This document shows positions 38,165-45,007 of a DNA stretch of 46,391 bases, in pieces (position 1 is the stretch's first letter; each line of letters opens with the position of its first letter). The notes below the pieces were generated by a model. It made no database searches and was not told where the DNA came from. It saw only the letters and a program-made list of their open reading frames with translations. The stretch comes from a virus: the IMG/VR virus record IMGVR_UViG_3300037153_000076, positions 1 to 46,391 of that record; one strand, given 5' to 3'. A program made the translations under genes and the position numbers.

Positions 38165-38642
38165 ACATTCCCAATTCACGAGCTGTATTGTCTAGGATAC
38201 TTGCCAATTCATCTGAGTAACCGAATCTCTTTTGATTATACGCAAGACTTGTTTCCGAGAAACTTTTAACTTTATCTGGATCATCAAACCTTTGCTTCGT
38301 GCGTTCGGATGCGGCTCGCCAATCGCACAACATTTCAATCAACGCCATCAAACTCATACCACGAATACCATTTTCGTAATGCTCTGGATGATGGTCGTTG
38401 TTTTCAAAATGATGTTTAAGTGCTGGACCAAGTTCACGAACTGCTGCCTTGTATTCTTCAGTGCCATATTCAACTTCATTGAGTCTCGGTGTCATCCTGT
38501 CGAAAGCTTCTAGTTCTGGTTCAACTAGTTTGCTTGCATCGTGTACGTCGGAGCGATCATGAAGATCATGAATCGCTCTTTCTAGGAAATATCGCACACG
38601 ATAGATATGATCCCATGTTTCTGGGCGCGAACTATAAGTCAT
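38157..38642 (-). CDS. DUF5662-type, HD-like protein, 161 aa
   Basis: ATG 38642 follows GGAGGAG and overlaps the polymerase stop by four bases. The conserved pattern is clear: THE segment DHIYRVRYFLERAIHDL, DVHDASKLVEPELEAFDRMT, YGTEEYKAAVRELG, HHFENNDHHPEHYENG, MSLMALIEMLCDWRAA. The clustered His and Asp residues recall HD-type phosphohydrolases, though the reaction is not known. Phages often carry this family beside polymerase genes, so a nucleotide-related function is a reasonable guess. Confidence 0.8.
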   Translation of the reverse strand: MTYSSRPETWDHIYRVRYFLERAIHDLHDRSDVHDASKLVEPELEAFDRMTPRLNEVEYGTEEYKAAVRELGPALKHHFENNDHHPEHYENGIRGMSLMALIEMLCDWRAASERTKQRFDDPDKVKSFSETSLAYNQKRFGYSDELASILDNTARELGMYD

Positions 38643-41074
38643 AGATTGTACTCCTCCAGGTTTCCCCAATTTGGGCCTATCTGTAGATCAACCGTGAATG
38701 GGAAATCATCCCATCCTAAAGCTCGTTTGGGTGCTGCCTCCATAACAGTTTTAACACGATGAGCAACGTCGCAAAGGTGCTCAGTTCTAACATCAAATAG
38801 TAAACTATCATGGACATTAAGAAGGACGGCAGCAATGGAAAAATCGCACTCAGAAACAAGCTCAACAAGGGAAAAGAGACAAAGCCATGCGGCAATGTTT
38901 TGAGGTAGAAAGTTAATACCTTCCCGAATGCAGGCATTCTTGTTTTCCTTTGTGATGATGGGGAATCTTCGCTTGTTACCAAATGGACTAACAACTTCCC
39001 CAACAGAAACAACTTGCCGGCCGACGTTGTTAGTCCATTCCCTAACAGCAGGAAATTGCTCCCACCACCATTTAACGAATGGTCTTGCTTCTTCCACGGG
39101 AATATCATGCTTCTCCTGGAATGTTTCTGGTGTCTGTAAGTATGCTACTCCGAAGTTGATGTTCTTTGCGGTTTGTCTGTTCTCTTTGGTGAATCCTGGG
39201 CCATAGAATCTTTCTGCGACGAGGGCATGAAAGTCGATACCTTCTCTATAAACTCGTCTAAATTCAGGGTCACCTGACAATTTACCGATAGTACGTAATT
39301 CCGCCTGGCTATAATCTGCATTGAGTAGGACTCGTCCATCACTCGCAACGAACAACTCTCTAATGTTTGGAAGATCCGGTTTAACTCTTGTAATATTCTG
39401 GAGATTGGGTCCGGAGGAACTGAGCCTTCCTGATACCGTATTGTGAAGTTTAAAGTTAGTGTAGAGTCTGTCTCCATTGTGGATTGCAATTGGAATCATC
39501 CCTTCGATATAGGTTGATCTTTGTTTGTCGAGTTTCTTGAAGTCCTCGAACCTTTCGGCCCAGCGTATCGCTGTATGTTTTCTATCCTGCTTTGTGTCAA
39601 CTTCACTTCCTCCGATAACAAACCGTCCCCCTTTAATTTCCGTATAAACCGCCTTATCAACGCTTCTCTCTTTTCCTTCGTATACTCTGAGATTGTGAAT
39701 GATTTGCCATTCGTCATATACAAGGGCTGCGTTTTGCAGTGATGAATTAGGATTATAGTCTCCCTTACCGACAATCAATTGTAGTTCGGCTTTTAGTTGA
39801 TCCAACGCCGGCCACACACTTTCCTCAAGGATATCAAGTGCAGCTTCTGCATTGTATGCTATCCCATTAAGCTCCACTTTGATCAGAGCATTTGCGGCAG
39901 GGATGAGATAACGCTGGTATGCCCCCCAAACGTTATCATCAATCGCGCGCTTCTTCAGGAGCAAAAAGAGCTGCGCTGTCCCTGCCGCATCTAGGGCGTT
40001 GTATGGATAAAGTTCCTCTGGAACTTCCAACGCCGCTAATTCTTTGAATCGTAATTCTTTTTCTAATCTCTTGACTGTGGATTTGAATTGCACAACTGCT
40101 TGTGGTTCGTAGTTGGGCCATCCAAATTCACTCATCAAAAGATATTCGAGTCTATGGACTTGTTCCTCATCGCTACGTTCATCGAGTGCCCATGACAAGA
40201 GCATGGTATCTTCATCTACTCTTGTGTCATATCCATGAAATCGAAGGTTTCTAACATCGAACTTGAAGTTGTGACCGAGATACCTACTTCCTCCATTGAT
40301 GACTGGGGCAAGGTAATTTCTACAGAAATCTTCATCTCTGAGTGGCTTTTCCCCAATAGAGATCGCTTTATTTCCATCGGCAGAGAATCCCACAGCAACG
40401 ATATCTGCATCCATTCGCAAACCCTTTGTCTCGATATCGACTGTGAGTAATGGAAGCTTCTGCTGTCGGATACCGACCAACCATTGTTTGGCTTCTCTGA
40501 CATTGTTAGTCCATCTTACTTGTGGTAACTTAGGTTCCGGCTTTGGAGCTAGAGCAAGTCCGAAATCTTTAACGAGATTCCCGAACGTAGAATCGTCTCG
40601 AAGGACGATCGCGGGATTGTTAGTTGCAATGATACGTTGAGTACGTCCTCGCGAATATCGCGAGTGTACGTAGCCTCTTGCACCTGAAAGACTTTTCCGT
40701 CTAGTAAGAGCAGCAACAGCTTCCACTCCTGCGGCGATAACTGTATCGCAGGCTCCAATTTCATGTTCAAGTCTAGCACTACAGGCTTCAATGGCTTCTT
40801 TCGGTGGATTATCTGTTTTACAGAGAACGACATTCGTTGTGATAATGTCACTTCGTTCTACCCCATACAATCCTAGTAGGTGATTGAGTACCTTACCAGA
40901 TTCTCCTGCAAATGGCGTCTTATGAAGAACATCGTACTTTCCTGGTGAACGTGAAACAACGGCAATTCGTGCTGTGGGTGGACCTGCTGTAGGAGCACAC
41001 CTTTGTTTCTGTAGTGGGCACTCCCAGCATCTAGCTAAAGGATGCTTCCTGACGATTTGTTCAGAGACTACCAA
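38639..41074 (-). CDS. Family A DNA polymerase with N-terminal uracil-DNA-glycosylase-like domain
   Basis: An 811-residue replicative polymerase from TTG 41074, preceded by GAGGG. Residues 1-175 resemble family 4 uracil-DNA glycosylases, with C16, C19, C85 and C98 placed for an iron-sulphur cluster, but the HP motif is NNP (residues 152-154). The 3'-5' exonuclease follows with DIETKGL (213), GHNFKFD (267) and YNALD (358). The polymerase domain has DYSQAELR (587), RQTAKNINFGVAYLQ (633-647) and NVHDSLLFD. All major catalytic acidic residues are present. The domain fusion suggests a link between base repair and synthesis. Confidence 0.9.
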   Translation of the reverse strand: MVVSEQIVRKHPLARCWECPLQKQRCAPTAGPPTARIAVVSRSPGKYDVLHKTPFAGESGKVLNHLLGLYGVERSDIITTNVVLCKTDNPPKEAIEACSARLEHEIGACDTVIAAGVEAVAALTRRKSLSGARGYVHSRYSRGRTQRIIATNNPAIVLRDDSTFGNLVKDFGLALAPKPEPKLPQVRWTNNVREAKQWLVGIRQQKLPLLTVDIETKGLRMDADIVAVGFSADGNKAISIGEKPLRDEDFCRNYLAPVINGGSRYLGHNFKFDVRNLRFHGYDTRVDEDTMLLSWALDERSDEEQVHRLEYLLMSEFGWPNYEPQAVVQFKSTVKRLEKELRFKELAALEVPEELYPYNALDAAGTAQLFLLLKKRAIDDNVWGAYQRYLIPAANALIKVELNGIAYNAEAALDILEESVWPALDQLKAELQLIVGKGDYNPNSSLQNAALVYDEWQIIHNLRVYEGKERSVDKAVYTEIKGGRFVIGGSEVDTKQDRKHTAIRWAERFEDFKKLDKQRSTYIEGMIPIAIHNGDRLYTNFKLHNTVSGRLSSSGPNLQNITRVKPDLPNIRELFVASDGRVLLNADYSQAELRTIGKLSGDPEFRRVYREGIDFHALVAERFYGPGFTKENRQTAKNINFGVAYLQTPETFQEKHDIPVEEARPFVKWWWEQFPAVREWTNNVGRQVVSVGEVVSPFGNKRRFPIITKENKNACIREGINFLPQNIAAWLCLFSLVELVSECDFSIAAVLLNVHDSLLFDVRTEHLCDVAHRVKTVMEAAPKRALGWDDFPFTVDLQIGPNWGNLEEYNL

Positions 41075-41706: not shown

Positions 41707-43920
41707 CTAGTAAGCTATCCAGTATTGCTCCGAACGTCTATTTGATTTAGGCACCTTGCGAATTATCTCGCCCCTATCAATCAACGTCCCAATTATATCG
41801 TTCATCTCACGGCTATTGAGATGCATCCTACGCATGATCTCTGATCTGTAGATCCCTGGCTGAGTATCAATAGCTGTACGGATTTTTTCCATGAGTTTCA
41901 TTTCTTCAGTCTGACTGACGTTCATAATAAGTTCAATCGAATACCTACCCCATTTCTGGACAAATCGTGCAGCCTGTTTAATATCGAGAATCTCTACAGT
42001 AATTGCGCTGTCTTTTGGTTCTTGTCTAAGAGCTGAAAGTAGCACAGCTAACTTCATCATGCTTCGAGATAGTCGCTCGAATGTTGGAAGCGCCAGATCC
42101 GAAACCAATGAATCGTTAGCTGCAACGACCATCTTCATTTCTAATTCACCGTAGAAATTCCAAGCATCCTGTGTAAAAACGGCCTTAGTAACGGGCTTGT
42201 CTAACAAATCTCCCACAGGGACTTTTTGATCACCGATCATTATGTAACCTTCGGGAATGTACTGGTCTTTCAGACTTAGAAGTTCATTGATCAACTTCTC
42301 ACGTTTGAGATTAGTTGCTATGTCTTTTGGACCAGTAGGTCTGATTCTCGAGAGGTCTACCGAACCATTGACTATCAAGAATCGTGGCAAGAAACCTGAG
42401 AGAACATACTCATCACTGAGGTGACTATATGTTCTCTCAGATACCCCACCACCAAAGAAGATAAAAACTGGACTTTGTACAACTACCTCAGAATTTGCAA
42501 GTGTTCTGACATATCTCTGTGGAGAGTCATACAGGTGTGTCAGAATTTCTGGAACGCCGGCCAGATATTTCTTATTGTTTATTGCACTGAAAAATCCTGA
42601 AACCTCATCCTTATAGAAGATAGATGTTCTACCTGGACGATTCGATAGACTTTTCAACAAACCTTCTGCTGTTCCATCATTGGTCATCAATGCATCCTGA
42701 TCAATTTCATTGAGTAATGACATTGCTAATTGCATTGCTGTCGTCTTTCTTGTTAATGTAGATTCTCCCAGAACAAGACCCCAAAGGTTGGGGACAATAG
42801 TACCGTATGAAACCTCGATTCGGATGTTTCCAGCCAATACAGCACTAAGCAAGATTGCCCCACACAGTTCGTGATACATAGGAACTGCATCTGTTGACTG
42901 AGTAGCCCACTCAGCGTACCTGTCAATGAAGGTGTCATGTTCAACTTCTGTGACATCTACTAACTCCGGGATTAGAAGTGGCTTGAAATCTTCCTGAGTT
43001 ATCTGAACGATCTTTTGTTGGACCCGTTCTGCCTTGAGAACTTCGATCCAGAGGAATCGCATGGGCCTGGAATCTCGTATGTACTTGTTACACTTAGCTC
43101 TGAGGCCAATTGCGTAAACTTCCTCACGCTCCATACCAGCTTCAAAGCAAAGATTAATAAGCTTCCACATGCGAGCAGACCAATCATTCTCTGTACTTGG
43201 CTCCGATTCATATAGCTCGTAGAAACTCCTTTCCAACCATGATTGGTATTTGTAAATGATCTGATCTGCGTCGGGAAGTTCACTTGTTATTGGAACCCCG
43301 ACTTCTTCTACACCTTCTGGAAGATCAGGATGCGGAGCTTCTGGAACCTCCTCAAAATCAGTAACAGGAATTTCTGTTAACGAACCTCCTGTTGCTAACG
43401 TGATGAGTGGTTTCTCATGGTACTTGAAGTTTGTTGTAAATGGTACTCGAAGGAGTTGTGTTAGATCCCAACCTGATGGATCAGCGCCATCTTGTTTGTA
43501 GTTATATGCAATCCTCTTGGAGTAATCTTCTGCTACTTCAACCGGGATTACTTGATCCAATTTCCAAAGGGCTTGATATCTTCCTGAGCTGCTATTGATA
43601 ACGATAGTAGGTTTGGGTACAACGTCATTCGGGTTGCAACTATCGAGGTCAGCCCAAACGATATCTTGGTTGACACAAAACTGCTTCTTGCGTTCCGGTT
43701 GTGACAATAGGTTGACACAAAACCAGATGTTCTTGTGCATGTTGTCACGGCAATAATCATGAATCTGGTCTTTCTGACTAGGCCAGTGAAAGAACTTCTG
43801 TCGGAAGGTCCCTCTTGCATTTGTAGCTTCTCCTGTCGCGATACATACATAACCTTCAGATTCTCCATACAGCCATTCAAAAAATTCAACTCTGAGTTGC
43901 TCGGTGGAAGAAACTGACAT
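41707..43920 (-). CDS. Primase-helicase (AEP-type primase plus DUF3987-like ATPase), 737 aa
   Basis: Residues about 1-170 resemble RepB-like archaeo-eukaryotic primases: DIVWADLDS (the D-x-D site, about 84-92) and SSSGRYQALWKLD. Residues about 370-540 are an SF3/DUF3987-like ATPase: GESTLTRKTTAMQLA replaces the classic Walker A with the RKT form of this family, and SIFYKDEVSGFF is Walker B. The C-terminus is a winged helix (GIYRSEIMRRMHLNSREMND). ATG 43920 is two bases from a tRNA-like element; no ribosome binding site is visible. It primes and unwinds DNA at replication forks. Confidence 0.85.
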   Translation of the reverse strand: MSVSSTEQLRVEFFEWLYGESEGYVCIATGEATNARGTFRQKFFHWPSQKDQIHDYCRDNMHKNIWFCVNLLSQPERKKQFCVNQDIVWADLDSCNPNDVVPKPTIVINSSSGRYQALWKLDQVIPVEVAEDYSKRIAYNYKQDGADPSGWDLTQLLRVPFTTNFKYHEKPLITLATGGSLTEIPVTDFEEVPEAPHPDLPEGVEEVGVPITSELPDADQIIYKYQSWLERSFYELYESEPSTENDWSARMWKLINLCFEAGMEREEVYAIGLRAKCNKYIRDSRPMRFLWIEVLKAERVQQKIVQITQEDFKPLLIPELVDVTEVEHDTFIDRYAEWATQSTDAVPMYHELCGAILLSAVLAGNIRIEVSYGTIVPNLWGLVLGESTLTRKTTAMQLAMSLLNEIDQDALMTNDGTAEGLLKSLSNRPGRTSIFYKDEVSGFFSAINNKKYLAGVPEILTHLYDSPQRYVRTLANSEVVVQSPVFIFFGGGVSERTYSHLSDEYVLSGFLPRFLIVNGSVDLSRIRPTGPKDIATNLKREKLINELLSLKDQYIPEGYIMIGDQKVPVGDLLDKPVTKAVFTQDAWNFYGELEMKMVVAANDSLVSDLALPTFERLSRSMMKLAVLLSALRQEPKDSAITVEILDIKQAARFVQKWGRYSIELIMNVSQTEEMKLMEKIRTAIDTQPGIYRSEIMRRMHLNSREMNDIIGTLIDRGEIIRKVPKSNRRSEQYWIAY

Positions 43921-43922
43921 AA

Positions 43923-44009
43923 GGGCCGAAGAGGAATTGAACCTCAAGAATCTGATGGGTCAAGATCAGATTCGTAACTACGCACTTCTGTAGCCAACCA
44001 TACCGGCCC
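43923..44009 (-). tRNA. tRNA-like element with irregular D region and 8-base anticodon loop
   Basis: 87 bases fold as a cloverleaf on the minus strand: acceptor GGGCCGG/TCGGCCC (seven pairs, one G-U), T arm GAGG-TTCAATT-CCTC with the canonical TTCAA loop, an anticodon-like arm GAATCTGAT/ATCAGATTC with an eight-base loop CTTGACCC, and a CTAC/GTAG hairpin in place of the D arm after a nine-base linker. No CCA is encoded. The D arm and extra loop base are abnormal, so it may be a degenerate tRNA, an unusual (for example frameshifting) tRNA, or a tRNA mimic. The anticodon is ambiguous (UGA or GAC). Confidence 0.45.
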
Positions 44010-44014
44010 ACCAT

Positions 44015-44048
44015 CATCTACCCGCTTGCCACGGGACTCAGGTAGATG
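44015..44048 (-). repeat. Inverted repeat between the ssDNA-binding-like gene and the tRNA-like element
   Basis: CATCTACC (44015-44022) and GGTAGATG (44041-44048) are perfect eight-base arms with an 18-base loop that holds CGCTTGCCACGGG. It starts three bases after the stop codon of the gene upstream. No T-run follows, so an RNA-processing or stability function is more likely than termination. Confidence 0.5.
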
Positions 44049-44051
44049 AAC

Positions 44052-44567
44052 TTACAAAACGTTAGCCGAAGCTGCCGCTTCCTCACCAGCAGCAGTTTCG
44101 ATGCTATAGAACCCTACGACACTGTTCTCCAGTTCCTTCGTCATCCTGTTCGGCTTACGAGTGATCTGGATAACCAGCTTCTTCTCGATGAGATCCTCAG
44201 TATCAACATCGAACGAACCTGACGTGATCTCTGCGTCAGTAAAACCTACTGCACGATACAGAGCGACGATCATTCCATTCATCGCCTTCCGCTTCTTGTC
44301 ATCGTAATCCTCGGGCGGGACTACGAGATTGCGGAACTGCCGACGATTGTAGAACTCATAATCCTCGTCCTCTACCTCAGTCTCACCGACCTTACCAGTG
44401 ATCATGAAATGGAAGAAAAGCATCGGAGTACCAGCCGGCATTTTGGAACCCTCGCCACCCTGTGTTTCCCTATCTTCTGCGTCGAAGATAGTGGCGAAAT
44501 ACTTGCCCGCAGGCATTGCATCAAAGCTCTGGGGCTCTTCGTAGTCCGTTAGGTTCAAAGTAGGCAC
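44052..44567 (-). CDS. ssDNA-binding-like protein (DUF669 group), 171 aa
   Basis: GTG 44567 follows GGAAGGTAAAC. The sequence (MPTLNLTDYEEPQSFDAMPA) with GKYFATIFDAEDRETQ then MLFFHFMITGKVG has the pattern of DUF669-type proteins that accompany RecA-like ATPases and act as single-strand binding or annealing partners. The C-terminal part is acidic. The HNH gene separates it from the ATPase gene, otherwise the pair would be adjacent. The function is an inference from pattern and position. Confidence 0.7.
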   Translation of the reverse strand: MPTLNLTDYEEPQSFDAMPAGKYFATIFDAEDRETQGGEGSKMPAGTPMLFFHFMITGKVGETEVEDEDYEFYNRRQFRNLVVPPEDYDDKKRKAMNGMIVALYRAVGFTDAEITSGSFDVDTEDLIEKKLVIQITRKPNRMTKELENSVVGFYSIETAAGEEAAASANVL

Positions 44568-44569
44568 GT

Positions 44570-45007
44570 TTACCTTCCTTTCATAGTGATTCTTGAGATT
44601 GTGTCTTGGCTAACATTGAACATGTTAGCAATCTCACGCTGGGTTAATCCAGAGCTATACAATTCTGTGATCTCTTTTTCTTGTTCATTTGTAAGTTTCT
44701 TAGGAGCGCCTCCCTTCCATCTTCCTTTTTCAGTTCTGTCCCTTACGTTATCAGCAGTAGTTCCAAGGAACAGATGAGCTGGATTGCAGCATGGTGGATT
44801 ATCACATCTATGAAGAACGAGCATCCCTTTAGGAATAGGCCCAATTACTTTTTCCCATGCTACCCTATGTGCTCTTTCTGTCCATCCGTTGAATCTATAT
44901 TTACCGTATCCTGTACCTCCTACCTTTCCACCCGTGAATTCCCAACATTCATCTGGTTCGCCCTTGTTTACATAGGACCAAAAGTCCTTTTGTTTAGGAC
45001 CCGGCAT
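44570..45007 (-). CDS. HNH endonuclease with C-terminal helix-turn-helix, 145 aa
   Basis: A free-standing homing-type nuclease. The HNH core is visible in ERAHRVAWEKVIGPIPKGML then VLHRCDNPPCCNPAHLFLGT (about residues 44-83); the following DNVRDRTEKGRWKGG is typical. LTQREIANMFNVSQDTISRI (about 122-141) is a helix-turn-helix for DNA recognition. It starts inside the end of the ATPase gene and ends two bases before the ssDNA-binding-like gene, so it may be a mobile insertion between them. The catalytic residues appear intact. Confidence 0.85.
   Translation of the reverse strand: MPGPKQKDFWSYVNKGEPDECWEFTGGKVGGTGYGKYRFNGWTERAHRVAWEKVIGPIPKGMLVLHRCDNPPCCNPAHLFLGTTADNVRDRTEKGRWKGGAPKKLTNEQEKEITELYSSGLTQREIANMFNVSQDTISRITMKGR

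Follow-up and report, generated by a model that had tools for sequence, protein, structure and literature searches.

The primase/helicase gene of the virus analyzed here is directly preceded by a tRNA-like element that probably acts as a phage t-element (we put this at roughly 60%). RNase P and RNase Z would cut it out of an ssb-primase transcript, leaving an ssb message with a hairpin-protected 3' end and a primase message with a leader of 1–2 nt. The window, i.e. the whole stretch of DNA that was analyzed, comprises the 46,391 bases of an IMG/VR virus record, in which the genes concerned are arranged in the order Sak4-like gene, ssb, element, primase/helicase and DNA polymerase A (Table 1). 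In related viruses the same fold occurs in the same place with different sequences, which suggests that host tRNA-trimming enzymes are used to cut phage mRNA. As judged from these sequence comparisons, the conserved part is the acceptor-T-arm-elbow unit that is recognized by RNase P and RNase Z. Decoding is not what is conserved, because the arms in the anticodon position comprise 8–9 bp, their loops vary and they share no common anticodon. Since a conserved anticodon arm is missing, charging is also unlikely.

Table 1. Features at the ssb-primase junction of the window.
Feature	Position	Strand	Basis or remark
tRNA-like element (whole)	43923..44009	-	fold z -3.7; covariation over five relatives
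Acceptor stem, 5' strand GGGCCGG	44003..44009	-	folding; RNase P cut expected just 5' of 44009
Linker UAUGGU, precedes the D-side hairpin	44002-43997	-	
D-side hairpin UGGCUAC / GUAGUUA, 8-nt loop	43975..43996	-	unconstrained folding
9-bp arm GAAUCUGAU / AUCAGAUUC with loop CUUGACCC, in anticodon-arm position	43948..43973	-	folding
T arm GAGG-UUCAAUU-CCUC	43931..43945	-	loop matches TTCRANY consensus; found in all relatives
Acceptor stem, 3' strand UCGGCCC	43923..43929	-	folding
Discriminator-like U43922, then U43921	43922, 43921	-	RNase Z cut expected after 43922
Primase/helicase gene	41707..43920	-	phrog_10514, E 1.7e-78; PF13148, 5.5e-14
ssb-like gene, upstream of the element	44052..44567	-	phrog_378 single strand DNA binding protein, E 6.7e-8
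Hairpin with 11-bp outer stem, between ssb stop and element	44014..44049	-	fold z -3.0

In unconstrained folding the minus strand from 44009 to 43923 forms a tRNA-like four-way junction. The acceptor stem consists of seven pairs including one G-U, and together with a T arm carrying a TTCRANY loop it corresponds to that of a canonical tRNA. The T stem of the window is formed by 4 bp, as a fifth pair would be a U-U mismatch. A canonical D arm of 3–4 bp is absent; instead there is a linker followed by a differently shaped hairpin of seven pairs, which harbors CUAC/GUAG and closes an 8-nt loop. Nor is there a 5-bp anticodon stem with a 7-nt loop, as the corresponding arm has nine pairs and a loop of 8 nt. 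A preliminary description, made from the letters alone, had proposed a tRNA-like element with a degenerate D arm that ends two bases before the primase ATG, and location, orientation, D side and spacing are all borne out by the fold and the coordinates. Its eight-base anticodon loop is correct as to loop size but not as to the stem; because the arm has nine pairs rather than five, "anticodon loop" is a positional name only. The element is markedly stable (z = -3.7, none of 200 shuffles being equally stable; z = -3.2 in a separate run). A fixed stretch of 110 nt gives the window a z of only -0.6, as opposed to -3.7 for the element alone, because the added flank shifts the shuffles and thereby masks the element. 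ARAGORN made no tRNA call on the window element, and Rfam returned no match above the gathering threshold, the best tRNA-type score being that of tRNA-Sec with 15.2 bits (E = 4). Covariance models had been suggested as a check, with noise-level scores counting as a refutation of the element; its scores are indeed at that level, but covariation among relatives reveals a real structure.

Primase scans of IMG/VR yielded 117 non-redundant loci, and more than 100 of these relatives are without a tRNA-like element. In L021, L022 and L083, whose primases share 72%, 64% and 38% identity with that of the window, exactly 3 nt separate the end of an element from the primase ATG. The element of L047 ends 3 nt before an ORF for a cytidine/dCMP deaminase (PF00383) and that of L093/L095 2 nt before an ORF of 52 aa, both ORFs being inserted at the ssb-primase junction. 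The contig of L002 (5,156 bases) matches the window without any difference from end to end, L021 lies on the same contig as L003, and the window, L021 and L022 are not fully independent because of their shared ancestry. Six distinct elements are thus located 2–3 nt before an ATG, as is typical of t-elements at the ends of coding sequences. Their sequences are nearly unalignable and their fold is the same. Common to all are the acceptor, a T arm with a UUCRAUY loop, the lack of an encoded CCA and the distance of 2–3 nt to the ATG; a GG on the D side is also present in all, which alone is weak evidence. The middle arm comprises 8–9 bp in five of the six abutting elements (window 9, L021 8, L022 9, L083 9 and L047 9 bp), and its loop measures 8, 16, 8, 17 and about 12 nt, respectively, with no shared anticodon. 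Only L093 harbors a canonical anticodon arm. The D side is formed by AACG/CGUU in L021, by two pairs in L022 and by a canonical D arm in L083 and L093, which still score as tRNA with 50.4 and 41 bits. A strong hairpin is positioned 2–5 nt 5' of the acceptor in four of the six (window, L022, L083 and L047); L021 and L093, where the element follows the ssb stop at a distance of only about 6–17 nt, show no such hairpin.

The frequency of such elements was compared to chance with a descriptor that requires a T arm with a TTCRA loop and, immediately adjoining it, a 7-bp acceptor. It matched 11 times in the real sequence upstream of related primases (176 kb) versus eight times in 3.52 Mb of dinucleotide-shuffled sequence, and matches with an ATG at +2/+3 numbered eight in the real and zero in the shuffled sequence. 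These correspond to six distinct elements before real ORFs, because L093 and L095 are near-duplicates and the ATG of L127 runs into a stop after three codons. A general habit of phages to let tRNAs abut an ATG was considered as well and rejected, as no clear excess was seen among 80 T-arm loci: of 31 ATG offsets that open at least 40 aa, four were the matching offset, and three of these four loci are near-copies of one element.

Covariation was analyzed in five elements (window, L021, L022, L083 and L047) by joining the columns of the acceptor and T arm with those of the eight outer middle-arm pairs. Eighteen of the 20 pairs changed on both sides in a compensatory manner, and the remaining two were invariant. 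Pairing was found in 99% of the cells, none of 500 shuffles reached any of these measures, and sliding by 1–3 columns cut pairing to 37–51%. The helices were picked for each sequence, which introduces a bias towards pairing; as a counterweight, the tRNA plan dictates where the T arm and the 3' strand of the acceptor must lie, and unconstrained folding recovers the same helices in all five elements. The presence of several G-U pairs favors selection at the RNA level. By this comparative evidence the window element is a real structure, despite its noise-level model scores.

The primase ATG (43920-43918) is separated from the acceptor by two bases (UU). It lacks a Shine-Dalgarno sequence (duplex energy -1.7 kcal/mol), in agreement with the preliminary description, whereas the ssb gene possesses one (-9.2 kcal/mol). 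This lack is not special to the primase, because a strong Shine-Dalgarno sequence is also missing in about one third of the window's other genes. The further claim that the primase message would be almost leaderless once tRNA-processing enzymes have removed the element is consistent with the geometry, and the arrangement recurs in the relatives. Other ways to start the primase were considered. A TTG at 43947 is located at the T arm and is likewise without a Shine-Dalgarno sequence, and no in-frame candidate lies upstream of the primase ATG in L021 and L022. A leaderless start generated by transcription would require a -10 box at the right place. However, no TANNNT box occurs at -7 to -12 in any abutting locus and no promoter-like site was detected near the window element, so that transcription is unlikely to begin at the ATG. 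A terminator-like site is not found there either, and the element was therefore rejected as an intrinsic terminator or promoter. Two neighboring genes of the window show peculiarities of their own. The DNA polymerase A gene (38639-41074, minus strand) encodes an N-terminal uracil-DNA-glycosylase-like domain (PF03167, E 9e-17, residues 29-163). Between the Sak4-like gene and ssb lies a gene for an HNH endonuclease with a C-terminal helix-turn-helix (44570-45007, minus strand), which looks like a mobile insertion because the relative L003 has only about 40 bases at this position.

The proposed t-element probably descends from a tRNA gene that was once located between ssb and primase. Both genes would be transcribed as one unit, and in this transcript the element would fold into an acceptor/T-arm/elbow unit that is read by tRNA maturation enzymes. 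Host RNase P would cut at its 5' end, after which the 3' end of the ssb mRNA would be the hairpin that stops 4 nt short of the acceptor (44049-44014) and would have a protective effect. Cleavage by RNase Z after the discriminator base would give a primase leader of 1 nt (U-AUG), or of 1–2 nt in the relatives, and the primase message would presumably be translated as a leaderless mRNA. As a folded structure near the AUG would clash with the 30S subunit, its removal or melting should be needed for translation. The element of the window might be a weak substrate, given its 4-bp T stem, the U-U mismatch and the altered D side.

The structure is close enough to the ATG to block the 30S subunit, and it could therefore serve uncut as a cis-acting translational operator, whose fold would block the primase start until it is opened by a protein, a synthetase-like factor or a ribosome, in the manner of the tRNA-like thrS operator of E. 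coli. The primase may need lower expression than ssb, and other relatives have plain hairpins near the ATG, which would suit such a control. However, a mere block needs neither an acceptor nor a TTCRANY T loop, yet every member has both. The loops also differ, so that no common protein-binding site is seen, and an operator is rather unlikely. The excised RNA might instead be the product itself, a non-decoding tRNA-like RNA that acts in trans, e.g. on RNase P, the CCA enzyme, EF-Tu or tRNA-attacking nucleases. Phages are known to carry decoy tRNAs. A stable RNA arising by such processing exists in mascRNA (PMC11693755). We regard this as unlikely, because arm and loop sequences are not conserved and the fixed spacing to the ATG would be left unexplained.

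Decay of an ordinary phage tRNA gene at the ssb-primase junction would agree with the ordinary tRNAs that occupy this slot in Amigo, Yappy, Jojan60 and L127, as well as with the tRNA scores retained by L083 and L093. It would, however, not yield the compensatory changes seen in the enlarged arm, and the acceptor and T loop are intact in all elements at a fixed spacing to the ATG, which makes a gene losing its function quite improbable. Even less can be said for a functional decoding tRNA, such as the frameshift suppressor hinted at in the preliminary description. A loop of eight occurs in the window and in L022, but a suppressor of this kind needs it on a 5-bp stem. The stem has 9 bp here and 8–9 bp in the relatives, the loop is not kept (8–17 nt overall; 16, 17 and about 12 nt in L021, L083 and L047) and no anticodon is shared. 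Moreover, most elements are without a D arm, and the slot neighbors L206/L207 have no anticodon arm. This role is thus very improbable, and the hint was dropped. The 3' halves of tRNA genes are common cores of phage attachment sites (attP), and the element could in principle be such a core, copied from a tRNA gene of the host. Against this, no copy of the 21-mer GGTTCAATTCCTCTTCGGCCC occurs in 84,980 bacterial and archaeal genomes, among which the true host may not be represented; the whole acceptor stem is present and covarying; and no integrase was found among the window proteins scanned, which cover part of the ORFs. An attP site is hardly conceivable under these circumstances.

Structured RNA is not confined to the loci with abutting elements. 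The 110 nt upstream of the primase show z < -3 in 40% of 116 loci compared to 3.5% of coding controls, and plain or branched hairpins occur near the primase ATG in many relatives. Long hairpins or branched structures lie shortly before this ATG in L023, L024, L032, L055, L058, L064 and L070, which have no tRNA-like element and mostly no visible Shine-Dalgarno sequence; in L055 an imperfect stem of about 18 bp ends 3 nt before the ATG. Elements in the slot without an adjoining real gene are found in L114, L127 and L206/L207. Those of L206 and L207 measure 46–50 nt, extend from about 141 to 94 nt before the primase and consist of an acceptor, a small hairpin and a T arm, with no anticodon arm. 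The element of L114 (145 to 72 nt before the primase) is called tRNA-Stop(tta) by ARAGORN and has the anticodon arm GCCGG-UUUAG-CCGGC with a 5-nt loop. In other phage contigs, L006:1640-1695 and the T-arm pattern match in L014 possess an acceptor and a T arm, but their anticodon arm is slight or missing; the element of L014 comes after the apparent end of an ssb gene.

Among the cultured relatives, whose hosts are mostly actinobacteria, tRNAs or tRNA-like elements occupy the slot in Amigo, Anansi, Molivia, Yappy and Jojan60. A nucleotide search of cultured phages gave no match, and no relatives of the primase were found in bacterial and archaeal genomes. Curtobacterium phage Yappy contains an unannotated tRNA-like element (L018:1774-1868) just before its annotated tRNA-Leu in the ssb-primase slot, with an acceptor, a T arm and a long irregular middle. 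In Stenotrophomonas virus Jojan60 the last slot element is an unannotated tmRNA match of 83 nt (L020:1874-1956; RF00023, 61.8 bits, threshold 47). It has tmRNA-like 5' and 3' ends plus CCA but is too short to hold a tag reading frame or pseudoknots, and thus resembles a miniature tRNA-like domain of tmRNA between tRNA-Gln and the primase. The four slot tRNAs of the Jojan60 record are annotated on the strand opposite to the ARAGORN calls. In view of the frequent strong folds, the hairpins and the tmRNA match of Jojan60, the ssb-primase junction seems to attract structured RNA, and tRNA-like elements appear to be one solution. We suggest only tentatively that, in this mostly uncultured phage clade, tRNA punctuation could be a standing expression strategy for replication genes. 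Recruited tRNAs, or in Jojan60 a tmRNA without its message part, may have lost decoding and may now serve as cut sites that yield a protected ssb 3' end and a leaderless primase.

Mitochondrial tRNA punctuation with nearly leaderless mRNAs is already known, and mascRNA is an example of a tRNA mimic that undergoes processing without being charged. If the t-element reading is correct, bacterial viruses set mRNA ends through host tRNA maturation enzymes, and the mitochondrial strategy extends to them. Some phage tRNAs classified as "degenerate" or "undetermined" would then act as signals for expression and not in decoding, and annotated gene starts that follow such a tRNA directly would be meaningful. 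The phage mimics would also provide a compact system for testing whether RNA cleavage can produce a leaderless start.

No description of tRNA-like punctuation in phages was found in the open-access library that was searched. The order ssb, tRNA(s), primase and DNA polymerase is shared by Amigovirus, Curtobacterium phage Yappy and Stenotrophomonas virus Jojan60. Unlike the window element, however, their slot tRNAs are mostly recognizable, and the primases of these phages have their own Shine-Dalgarno sequence and start about 33–250 nt after the last tRNA or tRNA-like element. A tRNA-like structure upstream of a start codon is also found in the thrS operator of E. coli, which mimics anticodon arms around the Shine-Dalgarno sequence but has no acceptor/T-arm unit abutting the ATG. 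Leaderless mRNAs are common in Streptomyces coelicolor, where 264 mRNAs have leaders of <10 nt compared to five in E. coli; of its 65 tRNA genes, 53 do not encode CCA (PMC4681348).

MascRNA, a substrate of RNase P and RNase Z, combines conserved elbow guanosines with a reduced D arm and a lengthened stem at the anticodon position (PMC11693755). The phage element resembles mascRNA/menRNA (RF01684) in that the acceptor and T arm are kept, the D side is reduced, the stem in the anticodon position is longer, the linker bases are few and a GG is present on the D side (PMC11693755). It differs in its score: the window element is below the RF01684 threshold of 42.5 bits and is not listed up to E = 10. 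For the L047 element RF01684 is the best Rfam match (29.9 bits, E 0.04), which is still under the 42.5-bit threshold. The location also differs, as mascRNA lies 3'-terminally in a mammalian long noncoding RNA and the phage element before a start codon.

Animal mitochondrial mRNAs have very short leaders. Plant mitochondrial t-elements are cleaved from mRNA ends by RNase P and RNase Z and are not aminoacylated (PMC11658184). Compared to these, the phage element is located before a replication gene, carries an enlarged arm of 8–9 bp in the anticodon position, and its cleavage is predicted. As in plant mitochondrial t-elements and tRNA punctuation, a tRNA-like fold that has lost decoding lies directly at a gene end (PMC11658184), and its geometry would allow RNase P and RNase Z to set mRNA ends with almost no leader.
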